The notes under the pieces were generated by a model. The model made no database searches. It saw only the letters and a list, made by a program, of their open reading frames with translations, and had not been told where the DNA came from. Source: Lentzea tibetensis (lineage in GTDB: Bacteria; Actinomycetota; Actinomycetes; Mycobacteriales; Pseudonocardiaceae). From it: a DNA stretch of 64,000 bases. The position numbers and the translations under genes were made by a program. The stretch is from NCBI RefSeq assembly GCF_007845675.1, contig NZ_VOBR01000002.1, positions 421,321-485,320 of the forward strand, written 5' to 3'. Shown one piece after another: positions 23,865 through 33,760 of this stretch; the stretch's first letter is position 1; every line of letters begins with the position of its first letter.

Positions 23865-23910
23865 CTGGGGTCGCACCGAAGTACCGCGGGGTTCCTCCCG
23901 TTACTAGCGT
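23865..23910 (+). promoter_or_regulatory. shared-motif promoter, copy A (sulfatase)
   Basis: CTGGGGTCGCACCGA occupies 23865-23879. The -10-like TAGCGT lies at 23905-23910, its first T 40 bp after the first base of the box. The ATG is 15 bp after that T, so the transcript is probably leaderless or has a leader of a few bases. Another CTGGGG half-box lies at 23854-23859, 11 bp (one helical turn) upstream. The same box and spacing recur at 27430 and 31008. Confidence 0.8.
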
Positions 23911-23919
23911 GCCGGGAGT

Positions 23920-25431
23920 ATGAGACGGTTCGTGTTGGTACTGCTGCTGTTGGCCGGGATGGTCACGGCGGCGGCACCGCTCCAGGCCCAGGCATCCCGG
24001 CCCAACATCATCTTCTTCCTGGTCGACGACCTGTCGTCGGACCTGCTGAAGTACATGGACAACACCAGGTCGCTGGCGAACAACGGCACCCGGTTCACCA
24101 ACTACTTCGTGTCGAACTCGCTGTGCTGCCCGTCGCGGGCGTCGATGTTCACCGGTGAGCACCCGCACAACACCGGGGTGTTGACCAACGTGGGCACCGA
24201 CAACGGCGGCTACGCGGCGTTCGAGCGGCACGAGGGCCGCGCGTACGCGCCCGCGTTGAACCGGCAGAACTACCGCACCGGGTACATGGGCAAGTACATC
24301 AACGAGTATCCGGTCGGCGACAACTTCAAGGTGCCTGCCGGGTGGGACGAGTGGCACGTCGCGGGCGGTGCCGGCTACAACGAGAAGAACTACGGAATCA
24401 CCGACTACGTCCGCGAGACCGGTGTGCGGCGGTTTGAACGGGACACCGACACGTACCTGACCGACCGGCTGGCTCGCACCGCCGAGAACTTCATCGAACG
24501 ATCGCGCGCGCAGGCGCCGAACAGGCCGTTCTTCCTGCAGGTGGCGCCGTTCGCGCCGCACCAGCGCGTGCCGTACCAGCCCGGTGAGGGCGAGCCGCGG
24601 TTCCCGCCGGCGCCCCGTGACCGGCCCGGTGGCGAGTTCTCGCAGGGCGACTGCGGCGGGCCGAGCTGCCCGAGCATCGACGTGGCGCGGGAGCTGCCGT
24701 CGTTCGACGAGGACACCGAGGACAAGCCAGGCTGGGTGCGGCGTGCACCGCTGGGGCCCAACGTGGTCGACGAGCTGCGCACCGACTTCCGCAACCGGAT
24801 CCGGATGGTGCAGTCGGTCGACGACTTGGTCGGCCGCGTGCTCGCGAAGCTCACGCCGGCCGAACGCAACGACACGTTCATCGTGTTCGCCTCGGACAAC
24901 GGGTTTCACCTCGGGCAGCACCGGCTGGTGCGCGGCAAGGGCACCGCCTACGACCACGACGTCAATGTCCCACTGCTGGTCAAGCGGCCAGGACGAACCG
25001 GGAACGGCGACTTCGTGCGCAACGAGATGGTGCAGAACGTCGACCTGTTCGCCACGTTCCTCGACATGGCCGGGGCCGGCCCCGCTGACCGCGACGGGCG
25101 GAGCTTCCTCCCGTTGATCCAGAACCAGAACCAGCCGAACTGGCGCAACGCCGCGTTCATCGAGCACCGCAAGCCACAGGGGACCGCGGCGGATCCCGAC
25201 TTCGACGACCTCGCCGCCGCCACGCCCTCGTACCAGGCGGTCCGCACCGCGAACGACCTGTACGTCGAGTACGCGAACGGGGAGAAGGAGTACTACGACC
25301 TGAAGACCGATCCGTTGCAGCACAACAACAAGCCGAACAACCCGCGGGCTGGGCAGCTGGCCGGTCCGCTGCGGGAGCTGGCGAACTGCCGGCAGAACTG
25401 CTGGGCCGCCTCCCACGTGCGGGGAGGCTGA
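23920..25431 (+). CDS. secreted sulfatase (formylglycine type)
   Basis: A 503-residue arylsulfatase-type enzyme with a Sec signal peptide (MRRFVLVLLLLAGMVTAAAP, cleavage probably near residue 24). Metal-binding Asp residues are in FFLVDDLSS (36-37). The formylglycine signature C-x-P-S-R is CCPSRASMFTG with the modified Cys at 69, followed by GKYINEYP. The late metal site is in FASDNGFHLGQHR. It hydrolyses sulfate esters outside the cell, likely of a polysaccharide. The glycosidase gene follows after one base, so they are co-transcribed. The promoter is copy A of the shared box. Confidence 0.92.
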   Translation: MRRFVLVLLLLAGMVTAAAPLQAQASRPNIIFFLVDDLSSDLLKYMDNTRSLANNGTRFTNYFVSNSLCCPSRASMFTGEHPHNTGVLTNVGTDNGGYAAFERHEGRAYAPALNRQNYRTGYMGKYINEYPVGDNFKVPAGWDEWHVAGGAGYNEKNYGITDYVRETGVRRFERDTDTYLTDRLARTAENFIERSRAQAPNRPFFLQVAPFAPHQRVPYQPGEGEPRFPPAPRDRPGGEFSQGDCGGPSCPSIDVARELPSFDEDTEDKPGWVRRAPLGPNVVDELRTDFRNRIRMVQSVDDLVGRVLAKLTPAERNDTFIVFASDNGFHLGQHRLVRGKGTAYDHDVNVPLLVKRPGRTGNGDFVRNEMVQNVDLFATFLDMAGAGPADRDGRSFLPLIQNQNQPNWRNAAFIEHRKPQGTAADPDFDDLAAATPSYQAVRTANDLYVEYANGEKEYYDLKTDPLQHNNKPNNPRAGQLAGPLRELANCRQNCWAASHVRGG

Positions 25432-25432
25432 C

Positions 25433-27421
25433 GTGAAGCCGCTCAGCGCACTCGCGGTCGCTCTCCTGGCCACGCTCGTCAGCGCTCCCAGCAGCGCGGC
25501 GGCTCCGGCCGTGCTGACCGTGTTCACCGGGGAGAGCGAGGGGCCGGTGCCCGGCGCGTTCCTCGGCGTCAACCACCGCTACACGTTCGACGGGTACGGC
25601 ACGTGGGACCCGGTGAACAACCGGCCCGTGCGCGACGTGCTGGAGAAAGCCCGGTCGATGGGCGTGCGGGTGTTGCGCTGGCCCGGTGGCACGGTCGCCA
25701 ACACGACGCAGTGGAAGGGCACGATCGGTGCCGACCGCCGCTGCCAGCGCGACGGGCGCATCGAGCCCGGCGACGCGGGCAACCCGGCGGACGACGTGCT
25801 GTCCGGGAGGCTGCCGTCGTACGGGCTCGACGAGCACCTGCGGCTCACCGCGGCGCTCGGCGCGCAGGCGCAGATCATGGTGCCGATGGCGATTGGAACC
25901 GCGGCGGACGCAGCCGATCTCGTGGAATACCTGAACACGCCCGCCGGTGACGGCATCAACCCCAACGGGGGTGTGGACTGGGCGGAGCTGCGGCCCGCCG
26001 ACCACCGCGGGCCGTACGACGTCACGCGGTGGGAGCTCGGCAACGAGAACTTCCACTCCAGCCAGCGGTACTGGATGTCGCAGAACGAGAACGAGGCGCT
26101 CGAGCAGTACATCCGCGGCGGCACCCGGCGGATCAACACCGAACGGCTGGGCAAGCTGTCCACGCCCGACGGGTCGTGCGGCGGCAGCACTGCGGACGTG
26201 CCCAGCGACGGCAGCGCGAACCAGGTGTTCGACCTCAACTACCCGACGGCGCAGCCAGACGACTTCGAGCTGCGCGTCGGCGGCGAGGTGTGGCAGCGCG
26301 TGGAGGTGCTGGGCGGTCCGCAGGCACAGCAGTACGTGCTCGACGAGTTCCGCGGCACGGTGACGTTCGGCGACGGGCGGCGCGGCATGATCCCGCCGCG
26401 CGGCCAGGCGGTCGTGGCGTCGTACACGTCCACCCACAAGGGATATGTGCAGTTCCGCGCGGCGATGCGGGAGGTCGACCCGGACCTGGAGGTGTGCGCG
26501 TCGTGGGGCAAGCCCGCGTTCGTGCCGAAGTTCGAGGCCATGAAGGGCAACGGGATTCCCCCGGGCAGCGTGTACGACTGCCTCACGACGCACCCTTACA
26601 CGCACTTCTCCGGCAGCCACACCGCCGACTGGGACTCCGAGGTGGAGAGTCACGACTGGCACGTGCTGGGAGCGCTGAACGAACGCCAGAAGTTCGTGGC
26701 GTTGCGCGACGCCGTCCGGCAGCACGCCGCGGGCAACCCGCACCTGGCGATCTCCGAGTTCGGTGCGTTGTGGGGACCTGACGGCGGTGGCGTGTACCCG
26801 GAGTACACCTACTCGATGACGCACGCGCTCTACATGGCGAGCCAGTGGGCCGACTGGCTGGAGCTGGGCGTGCCGTGGGTCGAGGGCAACGACCTGAGCT
26901 CGGACGGGATGTACACGTTGCTCGGACGTGGACGGGTGTACTCCGCCGAGGCATGGGCTCGGGAGGCCGTGCGGCCGATGTTCGACGCGGGCGGTGCGCG
27001 GGTGCGGCAGACGCTCGTCGGCAACCCGCAGCGGAGTCCGAACGAGTCTGAGATGTGCGACGGGCAGGGCACACCGCAGGACCGGTGCCGGTTGAACTAC
27101 GGCAAGCTCACCGCGACCGCGACGCGGGCACCGGACGGCACGGTGCACGTGATGGTGGTGAACCGTTCTCCGGTGGCGGGTGACGCGATCGACACCAGGA
27201 TCGTGCTGCGCGGATTCACCGGCAACGGGAGCGCGAGTGTGCGCACGGTGGCGCCGGAACGGTTCACCTCGGCCAACACCAGGCAGAACCCCAACGCGGT
27301 GGGGATGTCCGAGTCCTGCCGCTCCGTCGGCTCCGATGCGTTCAACGCGAATGTGCCGGCGCACTCGGTCACCCTGTTCACCCTGGCCCCGCAGGGGCGA
27401 CCTGGATGTGTTGGCGTGTAA
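25433..27421 (+). CDS. secreted clan GH-A glycosidase, GH51-like
   Basis: A 662-residue secreted protein with a signal peptide (about 24 residues, ending SSAAAP). The core looks like an alpha-L-arabinofuranosidase-type (beta/alpha)8 barrel: RVLRWPGGTVANTTQWKG, the acid/base Glu in WELGNENF, and the nucleophile Glu in AISEFGALWG. An insert of about 90 residues (DDFELRVGGEVWQRVEVLGG to YTSTHKGYVQFR) splits the barrel, and a beta domain ends the protein. The GH family is inferred from motifs only. As the second gene behind the sulfatase it would act on a sulfated or partly desulfated glycan. Confidence 0.8.
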   Translation: MKPLSALAVALLATLVSAPSSAAAPAVLTVFTGESEGPVPGAFLGVNHRYTFDGYGTWDPVNNRPVRDVLEKARSMGVRVLRWPGGTVANTTQWKGTIGADRRCQRDGRIEPGDAGNPADDVLSGRLPSYGLDEHLRLTAALGAQAQIMVPMAIGTAADAADLVEYLNTPAGDGINPNGGVDWAELRPADHRGPYDVTRWELGNENFHSSQRYWMSQNENEALEQYIRGGTRRINTERLGKLSTPDGSCGGSTADVPSDGSANQVFDLNYPTAQPDDFELRVGGEVWQRVEVLGGPQAQQYVLDEFRGTVTFGDGRRGMIPPRGQAVVASYTSTHKGYVQFRAAMREVDPDLEVCASWGKPAFVPKFEAMKGNGIPPGSVYDCLTTHPYTHFSGSHTADWDSEVESHDWHVLGALNERQKFVALRDAVRQHAAGNPHLAISEFGALWGPDGGGVYPEYTYSMTHALYMASQWADWLELGVPWVEGNDLSSDGMYTLLGRGRVYSAEAWAREAVRPMFDAGGARVRQTLVGNPQRSPNESEMCDGQGTPQDRCRLNYGKLTATATRAPDGTVHVMVVNRSPVAGDAIDTRIVLRGFTGNGSASVRTVAPERFTSANTRQNPNAVGMSESCRSVGSDAFNANVPAHSVTLFTLAPQGRPGCVGV

Positions 27422-27429
27422 GGGAAATC

Positions 27430-27475
27430 CTGGGGTCGCACCGAGATGGGCGGAGGTGGTTCGCGTGCATAGCTT
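27430..27475 (+). promoter_or_regulatory. shared-motif promoter, copy B (barwin-like gene)
   Basis: CTGGGGTCGCACCGA lies at 27430-27444 and TAGCTT at 27470-27475, 40 bp apart by first bases. The ATG at 27483 is 13 bp after the first T of the -10, so the mRNA is likely leaderless. This copy lacks the right-hand GTACC half seen in copies A and C. Confidence 0.8.
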
Positions 27476-27482
27476 GGGTGAC

Positions 27483-27896
27483 ATGACATTCACGCGAAAG
27501 TTCCTCACCGTGGTCGGTGCGGCCTCGGCGATCTCGTTGGTGGCGGCGGTGGACGCCAGCGCCGCCATCCCGTTCGGCAGGGTGATCGACGGCAAGGCGA
27601 CCTACTACGACAACGTCGGCCCCAGCGCGTGCGGCCCGAACATCGACGCGAGCGCGGAGGTGCTGGTCGCGGTGTCGCCCGTCTTCTGGACCACGCCGAA
27701 CCCCAACAACGACCCGCTGTGCCGGAACGTCTTCGTCGAGGTGATGCACAACGGCAAGAAGGTGCGCGCCAAGGTCAAGGACAAGTGCATGGGCTGCGAC
27801 CGCGACCACGTCGATCTGAGCCTGCCCGCGTTCCGCAGGCTCGCCAATCCCGACCGGGGTGTCATCGACGTCAAGTGGAAGTTCGTGCGCGGCTAG
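27483..27896 (+). CDS. secreted barwin/expansin-like (RlpA-type double-psi barrel) protein
   Basis: A 137-residue secreted protein. The signal peptide ends near AVDASA (residue 23). The mature part is one double-psi beta-barrel: GKATYYDNVGPSACG, the block LVAVSPVFW, a second Cys in DPLCRNVFVEV, and KVKDKCMGCDRDHVDLSLPAF with the conserved Asp of RlpA/expansin-like domains. The Cys pattern resembles fungal/plant barwin-like proteins (PR-4) more than bacterial RlpA. It has its own copy of the shared promoter box. Roles could be cell-wall loosening or polysaccharide binding. Confidence 0.85.
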   Translation: MTFTRKFLTVVGAASAISLVAAVDASAAIPFGRVIDGKATYYDNVGPSACGPNIDASAEVLVAVSPVFWTTPNPNNDPLCRNVFVEVMHNGKKVRAKVKDKCMGCDRDHVDLSLPAFRRLANPDRGVIDVKWKFVRG

Positions 27897-27905
27897 GTTG
27901 AACGG

Positions 27906-28928
27906 TCAGGGCGGCGTGACGCCGAGCCGGAGGATCACCCGGTTCAGCTCACGCCGCCCTTGCACGTGCAGCTTGCGGTACACCTGGGACAGGTGCAGCT
28001 CGACCGTCCTGGTGGTCACGCCCAGCTCGGTGGCCACCTCCCTGTTGCTCATGGCGCAGGCCAGCGCCGCCGCTCGCGACTCCTGCGGCGTGAGCCGGCG
28101 CAGCCGGTCGAGCCGTTCACCGAGTTGCCGGGTGTTCTGGATCCACAGTGGATGGTCGAGGTGCTGCGCGATGACGTGCGTGGTGGCGCAGGTCTCGGCC
28201 GCTTCGGTGTGCCTGCCCTGGGTGGCCAGCGCCTGCGCGAGGCTGTGGCGGGCGGGCAGCAGGTCGGCGGTCGCCTTGCTCAGCAGGCGGACGGCGGTGG
28301 TGAGGCGGTCGACGGCGTGTGCGGGGTCGCCGGTCAGTGCCGCCGCGTGCAGGGCTCGTCCCACCGCGTGGGGGGCGCCCCAGCGGCGGGCCGCCACCAG
28401 TTCGGTCTCGGCCAGCGAACGGGCCACCACCGGTCTGCCCGCGTCGTGCGCGCTGAGAGCGGCGGCCGAGCACCAGGGGAGCACCGCCGGGTTCGTGATG
28501 CCCGCGGCTTCGGCGGCGCGGCCGGCGGCCAGGAAATCCGCGCAGGCGCGGTCGTGGTGGCCCTGCGCCTGGTTGAGACGGCCTCTGGCGAACAGCAGGT
28601 CAGCGGTCTCGTCGTGCGAGAGCAGCACGTCCAGTGCCTCGTCGTGGCGACCCAGGTCGATCAACGCCTCGGCGTGCCACGCGGGTGCGGTGTGCAGGTG
28701 GGGGAGTGCCTGCGCGGGGCGTGCGGTGAGGGCGGTGACTCGGGCGGCCAGCACCGGGTTCTCCGCCTCGGCGTGCACACCCGCGTGGATCAGGGTGAGG
28801 ACGCAGCGGCGGATGTCGGCTGCCGCGGCTGATGAGCGCAGGACTTCTTCGGCCAGTGCGATCGCGGCGGGTCGGTTCGTGCCCCGGTTGGTCAGCTCGA
28901 CCGCTCGGTCGGTGCGGTCATCGAGCAC
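27906..28928 (-). CDS. LuxR-HTH regulator without ATPase domain (second of tandem pair)
   Basis: A 340-residue protein: a helical TPR-like region (ALDVLLSHDETADLLFARGRLNQAQG and similar) and a C-terminal LuxR HTH with RLTPQESRAAALACAMSNREVA, then TTRTVELHLSQVYRKL. The N-terminal P-loop domain of LAL proteins is missing. The GTG at 28928 overlaps the end of the upstream regulator by 11 bases; an in-frame GTG/ATG further up would give a long overlap. The helical parts of the two regulators align (AARRWGAPHAVG versus AARRWGEPRTVG), so they arose by tandem duplication. It lies between genes bearing the CTGGGGTNGCACCGA box and is a prime candidate for the activator. Confidence 0.88.
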   Translation of the reverse strand: MLDDRTDRAVELTNRGTNRPAAIALAEEVLRSSAAAADIRRCVLTLIHAGVHAEAENPVLAARVTALTARPAQALPHLHTAPAWHAEALIDLGRHDEALDVLLSHDETADLLFARGRLNQAQGHHDRACADFLAAGRAAEAAGITNPAVLPWCSAAALSAHDAGRPVVARSLAETELVAARRWGAPHAVGRALHAAALTGDPAHAVDRLTTAVRLLSKATADLLPARHSLAQALATQGRHTEAAETCATTHVIAQHLDHPLWIQNTRQLGERLDRLRRLTPQESRAAALACAMSNREVATELGVTTRTVELHLSQVYRKLHVQGRRELNRVILRLGVTPP

Positions 28929-30108
28929 GTAGTGCCCCGGAGAGGTCCTTGCGGCCGTTGACACCGAGCTTTCGGTACACATTGGACAGATGAGCCTCGA
29001 CGGTGTGGACGGTCAGGAACAGGCGTTGCGCGATGGCGCGGTTGCTCAGACCCGCCTCGGCCAGGCCCGCGACCAGGTCTTCCTGCCTGGTCAGCGGCCG
29101 CGCGGGTGCGGGGCCGAGCTGGGCGAGCCCTTCGGACGCCTGCTGGAGCTGGTTCGCGTGCCCGGTGCGGGACGCGGAGGTGTGCGCCGAGGCGTACTCG
29201 CCGCGTGCGGCGTTGGTGTCGCCGCGGGCGGCCAGCCTGCGGCCCAGTTCGAGCCGGGTGCAGGCCAGCTCGTGCTGCGCGCCCGCCACGGCCAGGAGGT
29301 CGGCGGCGTCCGCGAGCAGTGCTGTTCCGTCGTCACCGCGCACCCGGCCGAGCGTGGACAGCGCGGTGCCGACGGTGCGGGGTTCGCCCCAGCGGCGGGC
29401 GGCGGCCAGTTCCTCCGCGGCCAGCTGCTGGGCGAGCTCCTCGCGTTGTGCGGCGTGTGCCGCGAGGGCCGCCTTTCCACGCCACGGCGCGATCGCCGGG
29501 CTCTTCACGCCCAGCGCGAGGAAGTCGTGGCCGCACACCACGTAGTCGACGTAGGCGGCCAGCGGGCGGCCCTTCGCGCGGTGCACCGCGGCGCGGGCGG
29601 TGAGGAACATCGGGCGCATGGCCGACGGTTGGCCGAGCTCGTGGTCGAAGTCTCCTGCCAGCAACGTCTTCTCGGCCTCGTCCACGTCGCCCGTGTCGAC
29701 CAGCACCTCCACGAGCAACGCGGTGGACAGCAGTCGCAGGGAGCTCGCGCCCGGAGGCGCGTCCGTCAGCACGGCTCGTGCCGTGGCCAGGTCGCCCGAC
29801 AGCCGGGCGATCTGCCCGCGCACCTGCGCGTGCATGGTGCGGCGGCGGCGTTCGTCGGCGAGGCCGGGGTTCACGTCGTCGAGCAGGCGTCCGACGTGGG
29901 CGTCGGCGGTGACCAGGTCGCCCGCGGCCACGAGACCGATCATCGACCGCCAGACGCAGACCGGGTCGTCGCGGCACGAACCCGCGTCCAGCGCGGCGCG
30001 GGCGAGACGTGCGGCCTCCGGGAAGTTCGCGCCGCTGATCGTCTGGCGGATTGCCAGCGCGGCGAGGCAGTCGGATCGGTGAGCATCAGTGCGAAGCATC
30101 GTGCGCAT
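28918..30108 (-). CDS. LuxR-HTH regulator without ATPase domain (first of tandem pair)
   Basis: A 396-residue protein. The open frame runs to 30423, but ATG at 30108 is chosen because GGGGGAA lies upstream at normal spacing and the extra residues look non-coding. A TPR-like helical region covers most of the length (LARAALDAG, AEKTLLAGDFD, KGRPLAAYVDYV). The C-terminal HTH is LTRQEDLVAGLAEAGLSNRAIA with LTVHTVEAHLSNVYRKLG. No Walker A is seen. It is co-transcribed with the next regulator. The N-terminal coding part overlaps a secreted-peptide reading frame. Confidence 0.88.
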   Translation of the reverse strand: MRTMLRTDAHRSDCLAALAIRQTISGANFPEAARLARAALDAGSCRDDPVCVWRSMIGLVAAGDLVTADAHVGRLLDDVNPGLADERRRRTMHAQVRGQIARLSGDLATARAVLTDAPPGASSLRLLSTALLVEVLVDTGDVDEAEKTLLAGDFDHELGQPSAMRPMFLTARAAVHRAKGRPLAAYVDYVVCGHDFLALGVKSPAIAPWRGKAALAAHAAQREELAQQLAAEELAAARRWGEPRTVGTALSTLGRVRGDDGTALLADAADLLAVAGAQHELACTRLELGRRLAARGDTNAARGEYASAHTSASRTGHANQLQQASEGLAQLGPAPARPLTRQEDLVAGLAEAGLSNRAIAQRLFLTVHTVEAHLSNVYRKLGVNGRKDLSGALRAR

Positions 30109-30458
30109 GCTGAGTTCCCCCAAGTCAGCACTCGGCGCCTGCGTACGGGCGGGCCGTCCACAGCCGTCGGCAGGGCGGTGAGGTCCGGGACCGGCACGCA
30201 GCGCCTCGGCAGTCGTCCCCTCTTCTTCTTGACCGCCTTGGCTTTCATCGCGCGCGGCTTCGGGCACGGACGGCATCGTGGCGGAGGCTTCTTGCGCTTC
30301 TCCGCGACGATCTTGAGACAGCCGGCCTTCGCCGGCTGGAGCAACTCGACCCGCCACGCCGTGACCGCTGTCGCGTTGACCGGTGCGGCAGCCGCCAGCA
30401 CGATCGCGAGAGCGCTCACACACAGCGCATGCGTGGTCATCACGCGGTAACGGAGCAC
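29940..30458 (-). CDS. putative secreted cationic Cys/Pro/Lys-rich protein
   Basis: The frame opens at GTG 30458 or ATG 30440. A clear signal peptide (hydrophobic core ALCVSALAIVLAAAA, cleavage after NATA) is followed by a strongly basic segment with several Cys (AEKRKKPPPRCRPCPKPRAM, then KAVKKKRGRLPRRC). Codon third positions are strongly G/C over the first 110 codons, so coding is likely there. Downstream it runs 169 bases into the LuxR gene, where codon bias favours the LuxR frame, so the real C-terminus is uncertain or a frameshift has occurred. A TTGACA-17-TACGGT promoter gives a predicted start at about the GTG, a leaderless mRNA. No family is recognised; an antimicrobial or wall-binding peptide is conceivable. 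Confidence 0.5.
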   Translation of the reverse strand: MLRYRVMTTHALCVSALAIVLAAAAPVNATAVTAWRVELLQPAKAGCLKIVAEKRKKPPPRCRPCPKPRAMKAKAVKKKRGRLPRRCVPVPDLTALPTAVDGPPVRRRRVLTWGNSACARCFALMLTDPTASPRWQSARRSAARTSRRPHVSPAPRWTRVRAATTRSASGGR

Positions 30459-30464
30459 GCAGGG

Positions 30465-30493
30465 ACCGTATGAGGCGTCCGTTGAACTGTCAA
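30465..30493 (-). promoter_or_regulatory. sigma-70-like promoter TTGACA-17-TACGGT
   Basis: Read on the minus strand, a perfect -35 TTGACA (30493-30488) is followed by exactly 17 bp and a -10 TACGGT (30470-30465). The predicted start lies about at the GTG at 30458, giving a leaderless transcript for the cationic secreted ORF and perhaps the two LuxR genes. It is the best -35/-10 pair I see in the window. Confidence 0.75.
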
Positions 30494-30506
30494 TACTTAG
30501 GACAGT
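30486..30506. promoter_or_regulatory. MarR operator-like inverted repeat over the -35
   Basis: ACTGTC (30486-30491) and GACAGT (30501-30506) form a perfect 6-bp inverted repeat around AATACTTAG. It overlaps the -35 TTGACA of the leftward promoter and lies just upstream of the divergent MarR gene at 30549. Its size and position fit autoregulation and control of the leftward unit by MarR. Confidence 0.6.
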
Positions 30507-30548
30507 CGCACTCTAGGACTATCCGCATGTGTGGGTATCGTCTGCGCC

Positions 30549-31016
30549 ATGCAGTCCAGGTCGTTCGCCGGTTCGCCGGATGCGCAGGTCGTCACTGGTG
30601 ACCGCGGCGCTCGGACCACGCCCGAGCGGCTGGCGGTCGTGCTGCGTCGTTACCGGGAGGCGATGAGAGACGCGCTCGAGGTGCAGGACTACCGGCCGAT
30701 TCCGCCGACGGCTTTCTGGTTCACGATCGAACTGGCGCGTCAGGAGGGCACCGTCGGCGACCTGGCGCGCAGGCTCGAGATGACCAAGCAGGCCGCGAGC
30801 CGCCTCGCCGACCAGCTCGCCGCGCTCGGCTACTGCGACCGCGAACGCAGCGAGACCAACCGCAGGCAGGTCCTGCTGAGCGCGACCGCGGAAGGCCAGG
30901 GCGCCGCGATGGTGCTGCTGGCCGCCATCCAGAAGGTGGACGCGAGCATGCTCTCGTCGCTGGACAAGGACCAGCGCGAGGCGTTCCACCAGGCGCTCGG
31001 GCAAATGCTGGGGTAG
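30549..31016 (+). CDS. MarR-family transcriptional regulator
   Basis: A 155-residue winged-HTH protein. The recognition region is AFWFTIELARQEGTVGDLARRL, then MTKQAASRLADQLAALGYCDRE and the wing RSETNRRQVLLSATAEG. ATG at 30549 is used; an in-frame GTG at 30531 is possible. It faces the LuxR/peptide unit across a palindrome-bearing gap. Its stop codon TAG (31014-31016) is part of the third copy of the shared promoter box, so transcription through marR enters the thaumatin gene's promoter. Confidence 0.88.
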   Translation: MQSRSFAGSPDAQVVTGDRGARTTPERLAVVLRRYREAMRDALEVQDYRPIPPTAFWFTIELARQEGTVGDLARRLEMTKQAASRLADQLAALGYCDRERSETNRRQVLLSATAEGQGAAMVLLAAIQKVDASMLSSLDKDQREAFHQALGQMLG

Positions 31017-31053
31017 CACCGAAGTACCCCGCGGCCGTTGGTCTCACTAGCTT
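31008..31053 (+). promoter_or_regulatory. shared-motif promoter, copy C (thaumatin-like gene)
   Basis: CTGGGGTAGCACCGA is at 31008-31022 and TAGCTT at 31048-31053, again 40 bp apart by first bases; the GTG start is 13 bp after the first T. Here the box is a full dyad: GGGGTA (31010-31015) and TACCCC (31025-31030) are perfect inverted repeats with a 9-bp spacer. The box begins inside the marR gene. Confidence 0.8.
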
Positions 31054-31060
31054 TCGGTGT

Positions 31061-31798
31061 GTGAGAACACTTTTACGTCCACTGTGGATTGTCCTGCTGC
31101 TGGCACTGGTCGGCTCGCTCGCCGCCGCACCGGCCTCGGCCGCCCCGCCGTACACCGTGAAGCTGGTCAACTCCACCGGCGGCCCCGTCTGGGTGGGCAG
31201 CGGCGTCAACGACGACGGGTCGCAGAAGATCGGCGACCTGCCGAAGCTCGAGGCGGGCGAGTCCGTCAGCGTCCACATCCCGCTCGGGCCGGGAAACCAC
31301 TGGAGCGGCAAGTTCTTCGCCCGCCAGCACTGCAAGGGCGAGCCGGGTTCGACGTTCGGATGCCTGGTGGGGGACTGCGGCGCGCGGCCTGCCCACTGCA
31401 CCACCGGTGAGCAGCCCGCCAGCCTGGCCGAGTTCACCTTCGACCCGCGTGACGAGCCCGCACCCTGGTACAACGTCAGCTACGTCAACGGCGTGAACGT
31501 GCCCATCACGATCAACCCCACCAACGGCCCGTCGCCCAACGGCCAGTTCTGCGGGACCGCCGGGTGTCCCGGCGCGTTGCTGCCCGCGTGCCCCGACGCG
31601 AACCTGCGCAGGCATCCGAACACCGGCAAACCGATGCTGTGCGTCAACCCCAACCGGGACGCGAAAACCCCCTACAGCAACGCGATCACCAGGGCGTGCC
31701 CGAAGGCGTACAGCTGGTCGAAGCACGACGGCGAGCCCGGCAACCGCACGATGTTCAGCTGCCGCGACTGCAACAAGCTGACCGTGATGTTCCACTAG
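31061..31798 (+). CDS. secreted thaumatin-like protein (PR-5 family)
   Basis: A 245-residue secreted protein. The signal peptide ends ASAAP near residue 28. The mature protein shows the thaumatin order: an N-terminal strand YTVKLVNSTGGPVWVG, a CLVGDCG block like the cDCG region, LAEFTFD with WYNVSYVNGVNVPI (the conserved DYYDVSLVDGFN-like region), Cys pairs, and PYSNAITRACPKAYSWSKHDG, which is close to the C-terminal thaumatin signature. GTG at 31061 follows promoter copy C. Thaumatin-like proteins bind or cut beta-1,3-glucans and permeabilise fungal cells. Bacterial members are uncommon. Confidence 0.88.
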   Translation: MRTLLRPLWIVLLLALVGSLAAAPASAAPPYTVKLVNSTGGPVWVGSGVNDDGSQKIGDLPKLEAGESVSVHIPLGPGNHWSGKFFARQHCKGEPGSTFGCLVGDCGARPAHCTTGEQPASLAEFTFDPRDEPAPWYNVSYVNGVNVPITINPTNGPSPNGQFCGTAGCPGALLPACPDANLRRHPNTGKPMLCVNPNRDAKTPYSNAITRACPKAYSWSKHDGEPGNRTMFSCRDCNKLTVMFH

Positions 31799-31826: not shown

Positions 31827-32672
31827 TTGTCAGGCAAGGAAACGCAAGGGCCGAGCCGCCGTGCCGTGCTGTCCGCGGCGCTGGCCGCGTCGCTGCTGCC
31901 GTGGGGAACGGCGGAGGCGGCGCCGGTGCGGAAGAAGGGGGTGGCGACGTGGCACATGCCCGGCATCAGGGCCGCGCTGGAGGACGTGCGCGCGGGCTGG
32001 TTCCACAACTGGGACTCCACCAGGGGTGACATCGACCCGCCGCCCGGCGTGGAGTTCGTCCCGACCATCTGGGGGCAGGACCACGTCACGCCGGAACGGC
32101 TCCGGCAGGCGGCGGCGCAGGGCACGCATCTGCTGGGCTTCAACGAGCCCGACCTGCCCACGCAGGCGCGGATGACCGTGGAACGGGCGTTGGACCTGTG
32201 GCCCAGGCTGGCCTCGACCGGCAACCGCATGGGCGCGCCGGCCGTGGCGAGCGGCGCGGACCGGGAGGGCGGGTGGCTGGACCGGTTCCTGGCCGGCGCC
32301 CGCACGCGGAACCTGCGCGTGGACTTCATCCCGCTGCACTGGTACGGCGCCGACTTCGGGCCCGCCGCGGTGGGCCATCTGCGCGGCTACCTGAACGCGG
32401 TGCACGCCAAGCACCGGAAACCGTTGTGGGTCACCGAGTTCTCGCTGATCGACTTCTCAGGGCCGACACCGCGGTATCCGACGCAACGGCAGCTGGCGAC
32501 GTTCGCCGGTGCCGCCGCGGAGATGATGCACGGCCTGCCGTTCGTCGAGCGCTACGCGTGGTTCGCGCTTCCGGCCGACCGAGGTGGCACCGGTCTGTAC
32601 CGCGGCGCGACGCCCAACGAGGTCGGCCGCGCCTACCGGGCCGCACCCGGAAACCGAGGGGGAGACATCTGA
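31827..32672 (+). CDS. secreted GH128 family glycosidase (beta-1,3-glucanase-like)
   Basis: A 281-residue protein with a Tat-like signal (SRRAVLSAALAASLLPWG). The barrel shows the GH128/Asl1-like signatures: FHNWDSTRGD, the acid/base Glu 107 in GFNEPDL, LHWYGADF and the nucleophile Glu 204 in LWVTEFSLIDF. GH128 enzymes cut beta-1,3-glucan. The start is TTG at 31827, supported by GGGGAGGA nearby. It follows the thaumatin gene by 28 bp and overlaps the chitinase start (ATGA), so all are one operon. Confidence 0.85.
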   Translation: MSGKETQGPSRRAVLSAALAASLLPWGTAEAAPVRKKGVATWHMPGIRAALEDVRAGWFHNWDSTRGDIDPPPGVEFVPTIWGQDHVTPERLRQAAAQGTHLLGFNEPDLPTQARMTVERALDLWPRLASTGNRMGAPAVASGADREGGWLDRFLAGARTRNLRVDFIPLHWYGADFGPAAVGHLRGYLNAVHAKHRKPLWVTEFSLIDFSGPTPRYPTQRQLATFAGAAAEMMHGLPFVERYAWFALPADRGGTGLYRGATPNEVGRAYRAAPGNRGGDI

Positions 32673-33388: not shown

Positions 33389-33760
33389 GTGAAAGCACAA
33401 AGCCGCATCGCAATGGCAGCGGCAGTGGCCGCCGGACTGGCTGTGGCCGTGGCGCCGGGCGCATCCGCGGCGCCGAGCTGCCCGGACGGCAGGTATTGCC
33501 TGTACGACGGAGCCGACTACACCGGGCGGCTGGTCGTCTCCGACCGGATGGTGGTGCGCCGGATGGCGCCGCGCGCGGACGACCGGGTGTCCTCGATCAT
33601 CAACAACACCGGCATGGACCTGCACCTCTTCCAGGATCCCGACCTCAACGGGTTCGGCTGGCAGGACATCAACGGGATCGTGCGCCGAGGTGCGAAGGTC
33701 TCGCTGGCCACGCCCAGGCCGAACGACAACACGCTGTCCTCGTACTTCCTCTACGGGTGA
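33389..33760 (+). CDS. secreted beta/gamma-crystallin or I36-inhibitor-like protein
   Basis: A 123-residue secreted protein. The signal peptide ends AVAPGASAAP near residue 28. The mature part, CPDGRYCLYDGADYTGRLVV to RVSSIINNTGMDLHLFQDPD, has the Cys pair, the YxGxxxxF-like pattern and the VSSIxNxT phrase of peptidase-inhibitor family I36/beta-gamma-crystallin-like proteins. GTG at 33389 is used. It is the last gene of the thaumatin-glucanase-chitinase run and may be an inhibitor, a stress protein or another antifungal. Confidence 0.78.
   Translation: MKAQSRIAMAAAVAAGLAVAVAPGASAAPSCPDGRYCLYDGADYTGRLVVSDRMVVRRMAPRADDRVSSIINNTGMDLHLFQDPDLNGFGWQDINGIVRRGAKVSLATPRPNDNTLSSYFLYG

Follow-up and report, generated by a model that had tools for sequence, protein, structure and literature searches.

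A shared box at three promoters

The question raised by this locus of Lentzea tibetensis is why three transcription units encoding different secreted proteins should carry the same sequence element in front of their promoters, and which regulator may act through it. Scanning the window, by which we mean the whole 64 kb stretch of DNA analysed, identified three exact copies of CTGGGGTNGCACCGA, all on the forward strand: box A (23865..23879), box B (27430..27444) and box C (31008..31022). As the first-pass annotation had claimed, the first base of each box lies 40 bp before the first T of a TAGCKT element on the same strand, TAGCGT in unit A (23905..23910) and TAGCTT in units B (27470..27475) and C (31048..31053); TAGCKT has just these three occurrences on the forward strand of the window and two on the reverse strand. 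The start codons (ATG at 23920, ATG at 27483 and GTG at 31061) follow the first T of their -10 elements at 15, 13 and 13 nt, in agreement with the 13 to 15 nt first reported. At the usual spacing of 17 nt the -35 positions of units A, B and C are occupied by TACCGC, TGGGCG and TACCCC, spacings of 16 or 18 nt being no better, and the spacers between box and -10 differ among the three units.

These promoters present the features of class II-type activation of sigma70 promoters, namely a site by the -35 position, a fixed spacing to the -10 and a poor -35, and the first proposal is supported in so far as there is one conserved element at fixed spacing and no -35-like hexamer at any of the three units. 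An activator would bind CTGGGGTNGCACCGA immediately ahead of the vacant -35 position, and RNA polymerase, provided with a good -10 (TAGCKT) and no -35, would need this bound activator in a class II-like position. The box would span approximately -52 to -38 if the start of transcription is placed about 12 nt past the first T of the -10 element, and the transcripts would begin at the start codon or a few bases before it. A study of leaderless actinobacterial genes places TANNNT about 12 bp ahead of the start codon (PMC3160421). Units A to C show this arrangement, with 13 to 15 nt from the first T, and the suggestion that they are near-leaderless agrees with the data as judged from the start position alone; unlike plain leaderless genes, they have a conserved activator-like box before the -10 and no -35.

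Counting loose matches gives the box no distinction. When up to three mismatches are allowed the window contains 19 matches, against a mean of 15.0 in shuffled sequences (17 of 100 shuffles reach 19), and the 16 matches other than the boxes have three mismatches each. Because the motif at this threshold is no commoner than in shuffles, we gave weight only to near-exact copies. Markov models of order 1 to 4 predict 0.001-0.002 exact boxes per window on both strands (0.18-0.34 per genome of 9.36 Mb), which bears out the earlier argument that chance is unlikely to have placed the same box before three different secreted-protein units.

Conservation of the box among Lentzea species

A syntenic cluster was found in two other Lentzea species, L. 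waywayandensis (G023) and L. aerocolonigenes (G001), both having the order sulfatase, arabinofuranosidase-like, double-psi beta-barrel (DPBB), LuxR1, LuxR2, MarR and thaumatin-like with protein identities of 67-93%. The glycosidase gene that follows the thaumatin-like gene is matched in L. waywayandensis and not in the L. aerocolonigenes stretch, and the DPBB frame of the latter stops a few codons short of the end of the window protein. Both species retain all three boxes and -10 elements over diverged spacers, this being clearest at unit A and in L. aerocolonigenes. Among the fixed positions, box A keeps 14/14 in L. waywayandensis and 12/14 in L. aerocolonigenes within diverged flanks, box B keeps 14/14 in both, and box C keeps 13/14 and 14/14, respectively. 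The -10 of unit A is identical at 6/6 positions in L. aerocolonigenes and also reads TAGCGT in L. waywayandensis, where the spacer is 1 nt longer.

Relics of the cluster were found in two further genomes. In G012 (L077) part of marR, box C with 14/14 fixed positions and a broken thaumatin gene remain, and in G002 (L189) box A persists with two changes and an altered -10, while the sulfatase and thaumatin genes are reduced to fragments; the cluster is apparently being lost. Comparing the 12 pairs of orthologous promoters (window, L. waywayandensis and L. aerocolonigenes, with G012 added for unit C), the box retains 12-14 of its 14 fixed positions; in the 10 pairs with spacers of equal length, 9-18 of the 22 spacer positions are unchanged. 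All sequence upstream of the box at unit A has diverged in the alignment of the three clusters, and the spacers of all three units keep 10-13 of 22 positions between the window and L. aerocolonigenes. The flanks of boxes B and C are well kept between the window and L. waywayandensis (17/22 and 18/22 positions in the spacers, fractions of 0.78 and 0.95 upstream, the latter in coding sequence), and the footprint therefore relies mainly on unit A and on L. aerocolonigenes. Box C contains the stop codon of marR, the A at its variable position being the middle base of the TAG.

Altogether 11 instances of the box were compared, three from each of the three clusters and one from each relic, the pattern by which they were gathered fixing most of the box. 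All 14 fixed positions of CTGGGGTNGCACCGA are present in 8/11, the rest having one or two changes. Box and -10, measured between their first bases, lie 40 bp apart in 10/11 and 41 bp apart in copy A of L. waywayandensis, and the -10 is TAGCKT in 10/11 and CAGCGT in the G002 relic. To the right of the box AGTACC follows in 6/8 A and C copies and GATG in 3/3 B copies, and because this sequence differs between A/C and B copies we consider the shared core to be the 15-mer. The symmetry of the box is weak, with no centre averaging 4/7 complementary pairs over the 11 instances. Read by hand as a palindrome centred on N, the box has 3/7 complementary pairs, and we left this possibility as weak. The first-pass annotation had also described copy C as a perfect dyad: it does read GGGGTA-N9-TACCCC, but as a feature of the site the dyad fails, since it is complete (6/6) in only 2/11 instances, the C copies of the window and L. 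waywayandensis, while the other nine have 1-5 of 6.

Near-confinement of the box to the cluster

The search of the genome of origin, in which part of the region reads N so that only copy A is visible and the evidence for copies B and C comes from the window, showed the box to be rare elsewhere: no box followed by N25 and TA was found elsewhere in this genome at 0 or 1 mismatch. Contig 13 carries one further exact box, which has no TA at this distance; with up to three mismatches allowed, the pattern and a reversed-pattern control match 57 and 58 times, respectively. Extending the search for box-N25-TA with at most one mismatch to 25 genomes of the genus (own included) yielded seven matches in five genomes against two for the reversed control, 20/25 genomes having none; this pattern misses copy A of L. 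aerocolonigenes (two mismatches) and that of L. waywayandensis (spacing of 41). Six of the seven matches fall in this cluster or in a relic; around the seventh (G002, contig 40) no homologue of the cluster proteins was found within the 17 kb fetched. Over 298 genomes of the family 30 matches were listed, seven in the genus and 23 outside it against 34 outside for the reversed control, and we rejected a wider regulon beyond the genus because there is no excess over this control. DPBB homologues outside both types of cluster described here (G011 and G020) have no box within 3.3 kb around them, the best matches differing from it at 4 and 3 positions and the one with 3 lacking a TA at the right distance. 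The box plus TA at fixed spacing is thus nearly confined to this cluster and is a cluster-specific, not a global, site. It is a real, conserved control element. A literature search for the string GGGGTNGCACCGA returned no paper, though papers seldom print such strings.

Products of the three units

Unit A (forward strand, as are all the genes of this section) begins with a sulfatase gene (23920..25431; PF00884, E 4.8e-42), followed by an arabinofuranosidase-like gene (25433..27421) with weak, below cut-off matches (PF06964, E 1.5e-4; NF051901, E 7.5e-14). Unit B encodes a DPBB protein (27483..27896; PF03330). Unit C starts with a thaumatin-like gene (31061..31798; PF00314, E 1.2e-30), and a gene for a protein with a glycoside hydrolase catalytic core (31827..32672; PF11790, E 9.2e-42) is probably its second gene, given the gap of 28 bp. 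Secretion was judged by eye from the N-termini, which are signal-peptide-like in the sulfatase, arabinofuranosidase-like, DPBB and thaumatin-like proteins. The label barwin-like, first given to the unit B product, holds as a fold, but the protein scores 200 bits against NF041659, a cysteine/serine endopeptidase inhibitor (papain-inhibitor) family, above the cut-off of 150; because it passes this cut-off, protease inhibitor seems the better guess. Immediately past the cluster, a peptidase inhibitor I36-family protein is encoded (33389-33760, forward strand).

The products of this regulon resemble plant pathogenesis-related families (a thaumatin-like protein and a barwin-fold inhibitor), accompanied by a sulfatase and glycosidase-like proteins. 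We found no paper joining thaumatin-like and barwin proteins in actinobacteria or bacteria. Alignment of the thaumatin-like protein against named genomes gave three loci, all from Lentzea, in a scan that used two short peptide patterns and possibly left out the window's own records.

Candidate regulators and a proposed control circuit

Between units B and C the cluster encodes three regulators. LuxR1 (27906..28982, reverse strand) has a LuxR-type helix-turn-helix (HTH; PF00196, E 8.4e-9) behind a possible TPR-like region with matches below the cut-offs, and LuxR2 (28918..30108, reverse strand; 396 aa from the proposed ATG) has the same HTH (E 3e-13); the scores of 35.4 and 49.6 bits exceed the Pfam cut-off of 23.5 for this GerE domain, and the pair lies within the cluster in 3/3 species. 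At the head of their operon a frame for a possible small secreted, basic (lysine-rich) and Cys-containing protein (29940..30443, reverse strand) overlaps LuxR2 in another frame and is kept in both other species; its residues from 30066-30443 gave no Pfam match. The third is a MarR-family gene (30549..31016, forward strand; PF12802 and PF01047), divergent to the LuxR operon, near-leaderless behind a -10-like TATCGT (30536..30541, forward strand) and ending within box C. The LuxR operon has a full promoter on the reverse strand, TTGACA (30488..30493) and TACGGT (30465..30470) at a spacing of 17 nt in 3/3 clusters. Overlapping this -35 is a dyad, ACTGTC-N9-GACAGT (30486..30506), kept in 3/3 clusters, which occurs once in the window when gaps of 8-10 nt are allowed and whose sequence is unlike the box; we propose it as the MarR operator.

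Because units A to C lack a -35 while the LuxR operon has a full promoter, we read the box as an activator site, which it very probably is judging from the sequence, and the dyad as a repressor site. The best explanation of these features would be a cascade in which a signal-sensing MarR keeps the LuxR pair off through the dyad over the -35 of their operon until the signal arrives, and the LuxR pair (one or both), once released, switches on all three secreted-protein units through the box. We give this cascade as a whole about an even chance of being right. Repression of the LuxR operon by MarR is somewhat probable, and the LuxR pair, which is the likeliest candidate for binding the box, has about even odds of doing so. 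LuxR-type dimers usually bind dyads, and the lack of strong symmetry in the box therefore counts against the LuxR pair as its binder.

The kind of arrangement is already known, and we regard it as a sound and fairly ordinary local control circuit. MarR-family divergent autoregulation is a general pattern, and the locus is like it in having marR divergent to the LuxR operon and a conserved dyad over the -35; it would be unlike the usual case in that the proposed target is a regulator operon controlling three other promoters. Like MalT and the LAL regulators, LuxR1 and LuxR2 bear the LuxR-type HTH at the C-terminus, and MalT boxes are G-rich and asymmetric. The MalT model NF003420 covers the HTH of LuxR2 only, with 33.7 bits, far below the cut-off of 537 bits, and unlike these large ATPase proteins LuxR1 (358 aa) and LuxR2 show no ATPase domain. 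Neither shows a receiver match (as in NarL/FixJ) nor, unlike PAS-LuxR regulators, a PAS match at E 0.001. For PimM, a PAS-LuxR regulator of Streptomyces clusters, the box CTVGGGAWWTCCCBAG lies in the -35 region of the regulated promoters (PMC9774167). A conserved box at the -35 region and the cluster-specific LuxR-type regulation proposed here are like this system, and the PimM half-site CTVGGGA resembles the CTGGGGT of our box; unlike the 16-bp palindrome of PimM, the box is asymmetric, has another right half and does not conform to the full PimM consensus.

Alternative explanations

Binding of the box by a regulator encoded elsewhere, be it another LuxR/LAL protein, a SARP or a two-component regulator, is the first alternative, and we consider it rather unlikely. 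There are dozens of LuxR-type proteins in the genome (55 LuxR2 matches in G000 among 61 scored of 206 candidates), and a box without strong symmetry is consistent with such a regulator; no SARP gene (BTAD, Trans_reg_C) was present among the 10 window proteins scanned. Against this, box-N25-TA at up to one mismatch occurs almost only in this cluster, one of the five genomes with matches (G002) having its match outside the cluster, and this near-restriction fits a cluster-situated regulator better.

We consider it quite improbable that MarR recognises the box itself and acts on the three units without an intermediate, whether as their activator or as an antagonist. The marR gene overlaps box C, the 6-N9-6 dyad of window copy C has the same geometry as the dyad on the marR side, and the G012 relic keeps partial marR, box C and a partial thaumatin-like gene, with no LuxR1 or LuxR2 homologue found in the 19.9 kb fetched. 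The dyad at the divergent promoter of marR has, however, another sequence (ACTGTC/GACAGT), and the divergent promoter of its own gene is the usual position of a MarR operator. Moreover, the dyad of copy C is not conserved, and the G012 copy is a broken remnant whose retention says little. Patterns of presence do not separate these candidates, since all three clusters have both the MarR and the LuxR genes and both relics have either lost them or keep them in broken form.

Three near-identical elements within about 7 kb could also have arisen by recent copying of a single promoter inside the cluster, without regulatory selection, but the differing spacers and the occurrence of each copy at its own orthologous place in three species, with surroundings diverged at least in L. 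aerocolonigenes, make this most improbable, and the footprint already largely refutes it. Chance similarity in GC-rich promoters, to which the abundance of loose matches in shuffles and in the reversed control would conform, is refuted by the exact-match expectation together with the orthologous conservation.

The cascade from MarR through the LuxR pair to the box would describe a compact regulon, retained across species, for which site, spacing and candidate regulators are defined and a test needs no more than three short promoters and two or three proteins.

Paralogous LuxR-pair clusters

In 9/25 genomes of the genus (G004, G005, G007, G008, G010, G016, G018, G022 and G023) a LuxR pair also precedes a thaumatin-like gene (54-55% identical) and a DPBB gene; the 19 kb around these nine paralogous clusters (L177-L185) yielded no MarR or sulfatase homologue. 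A conserved block, AACYTTGCGGRCYSACCGTG, precedes the thaumatin gene in all nine. We examined this block as a variant of the box and rejected it, the sequence match not being beyond chance: 8-9 of 14 positions match, and in 8/9 regions 2-10 other places of 319 match the box as well or better (none in the ninth). At the register of TAGCKT the nine promoters all have GATCGT or GATGGT (GATSGT), sharing the second and last bases with it. The data therefore support a link of LuxR pairs with thaumatin and DPBB genes, but not a shared recognition code. For the LuxR pair as binder of the box, the recurrence of such pairs in clusters that yielded no MarR homologue speaks in favour, and the poor match of the block speaks against.

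A bolder and, in our view, unlikely possibility is that LuxR1 and LuxR2 bind the asymmetric 15-bp box as a heterodimer, one subunit per half, within a cascade headed by MarR, and that related pairs with boxes of their own, such as the block of the nine paralogous clusters, form a widespread switch in Lentzea. Were it true, there would be a cluster-situated switch for secreted proteins resembling plant pathogenesis-related (PR) proteins, and for other clusters.

In the paralogous cluster of L. waywayandensis, one of the nine and the one checked for this feature, a CAP protein (L185:8725-9252) follows the thaumatin-like and DPBB genes; we take CAP proteins to be PR-1-like, thaumatin-like proteins PR-5-like and DPBB proteins PR-4-like. 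Further adjacent LuxR-type pairs occur at L186 and L187 (G019) and at L188 (G008), with no thaumatin or DPBB homologue in the 19 kb fetched, and by eye the neighbour of these pairs is either a large gene resembling those of ATPase regulators or what is probably a biosynthetic cluster.
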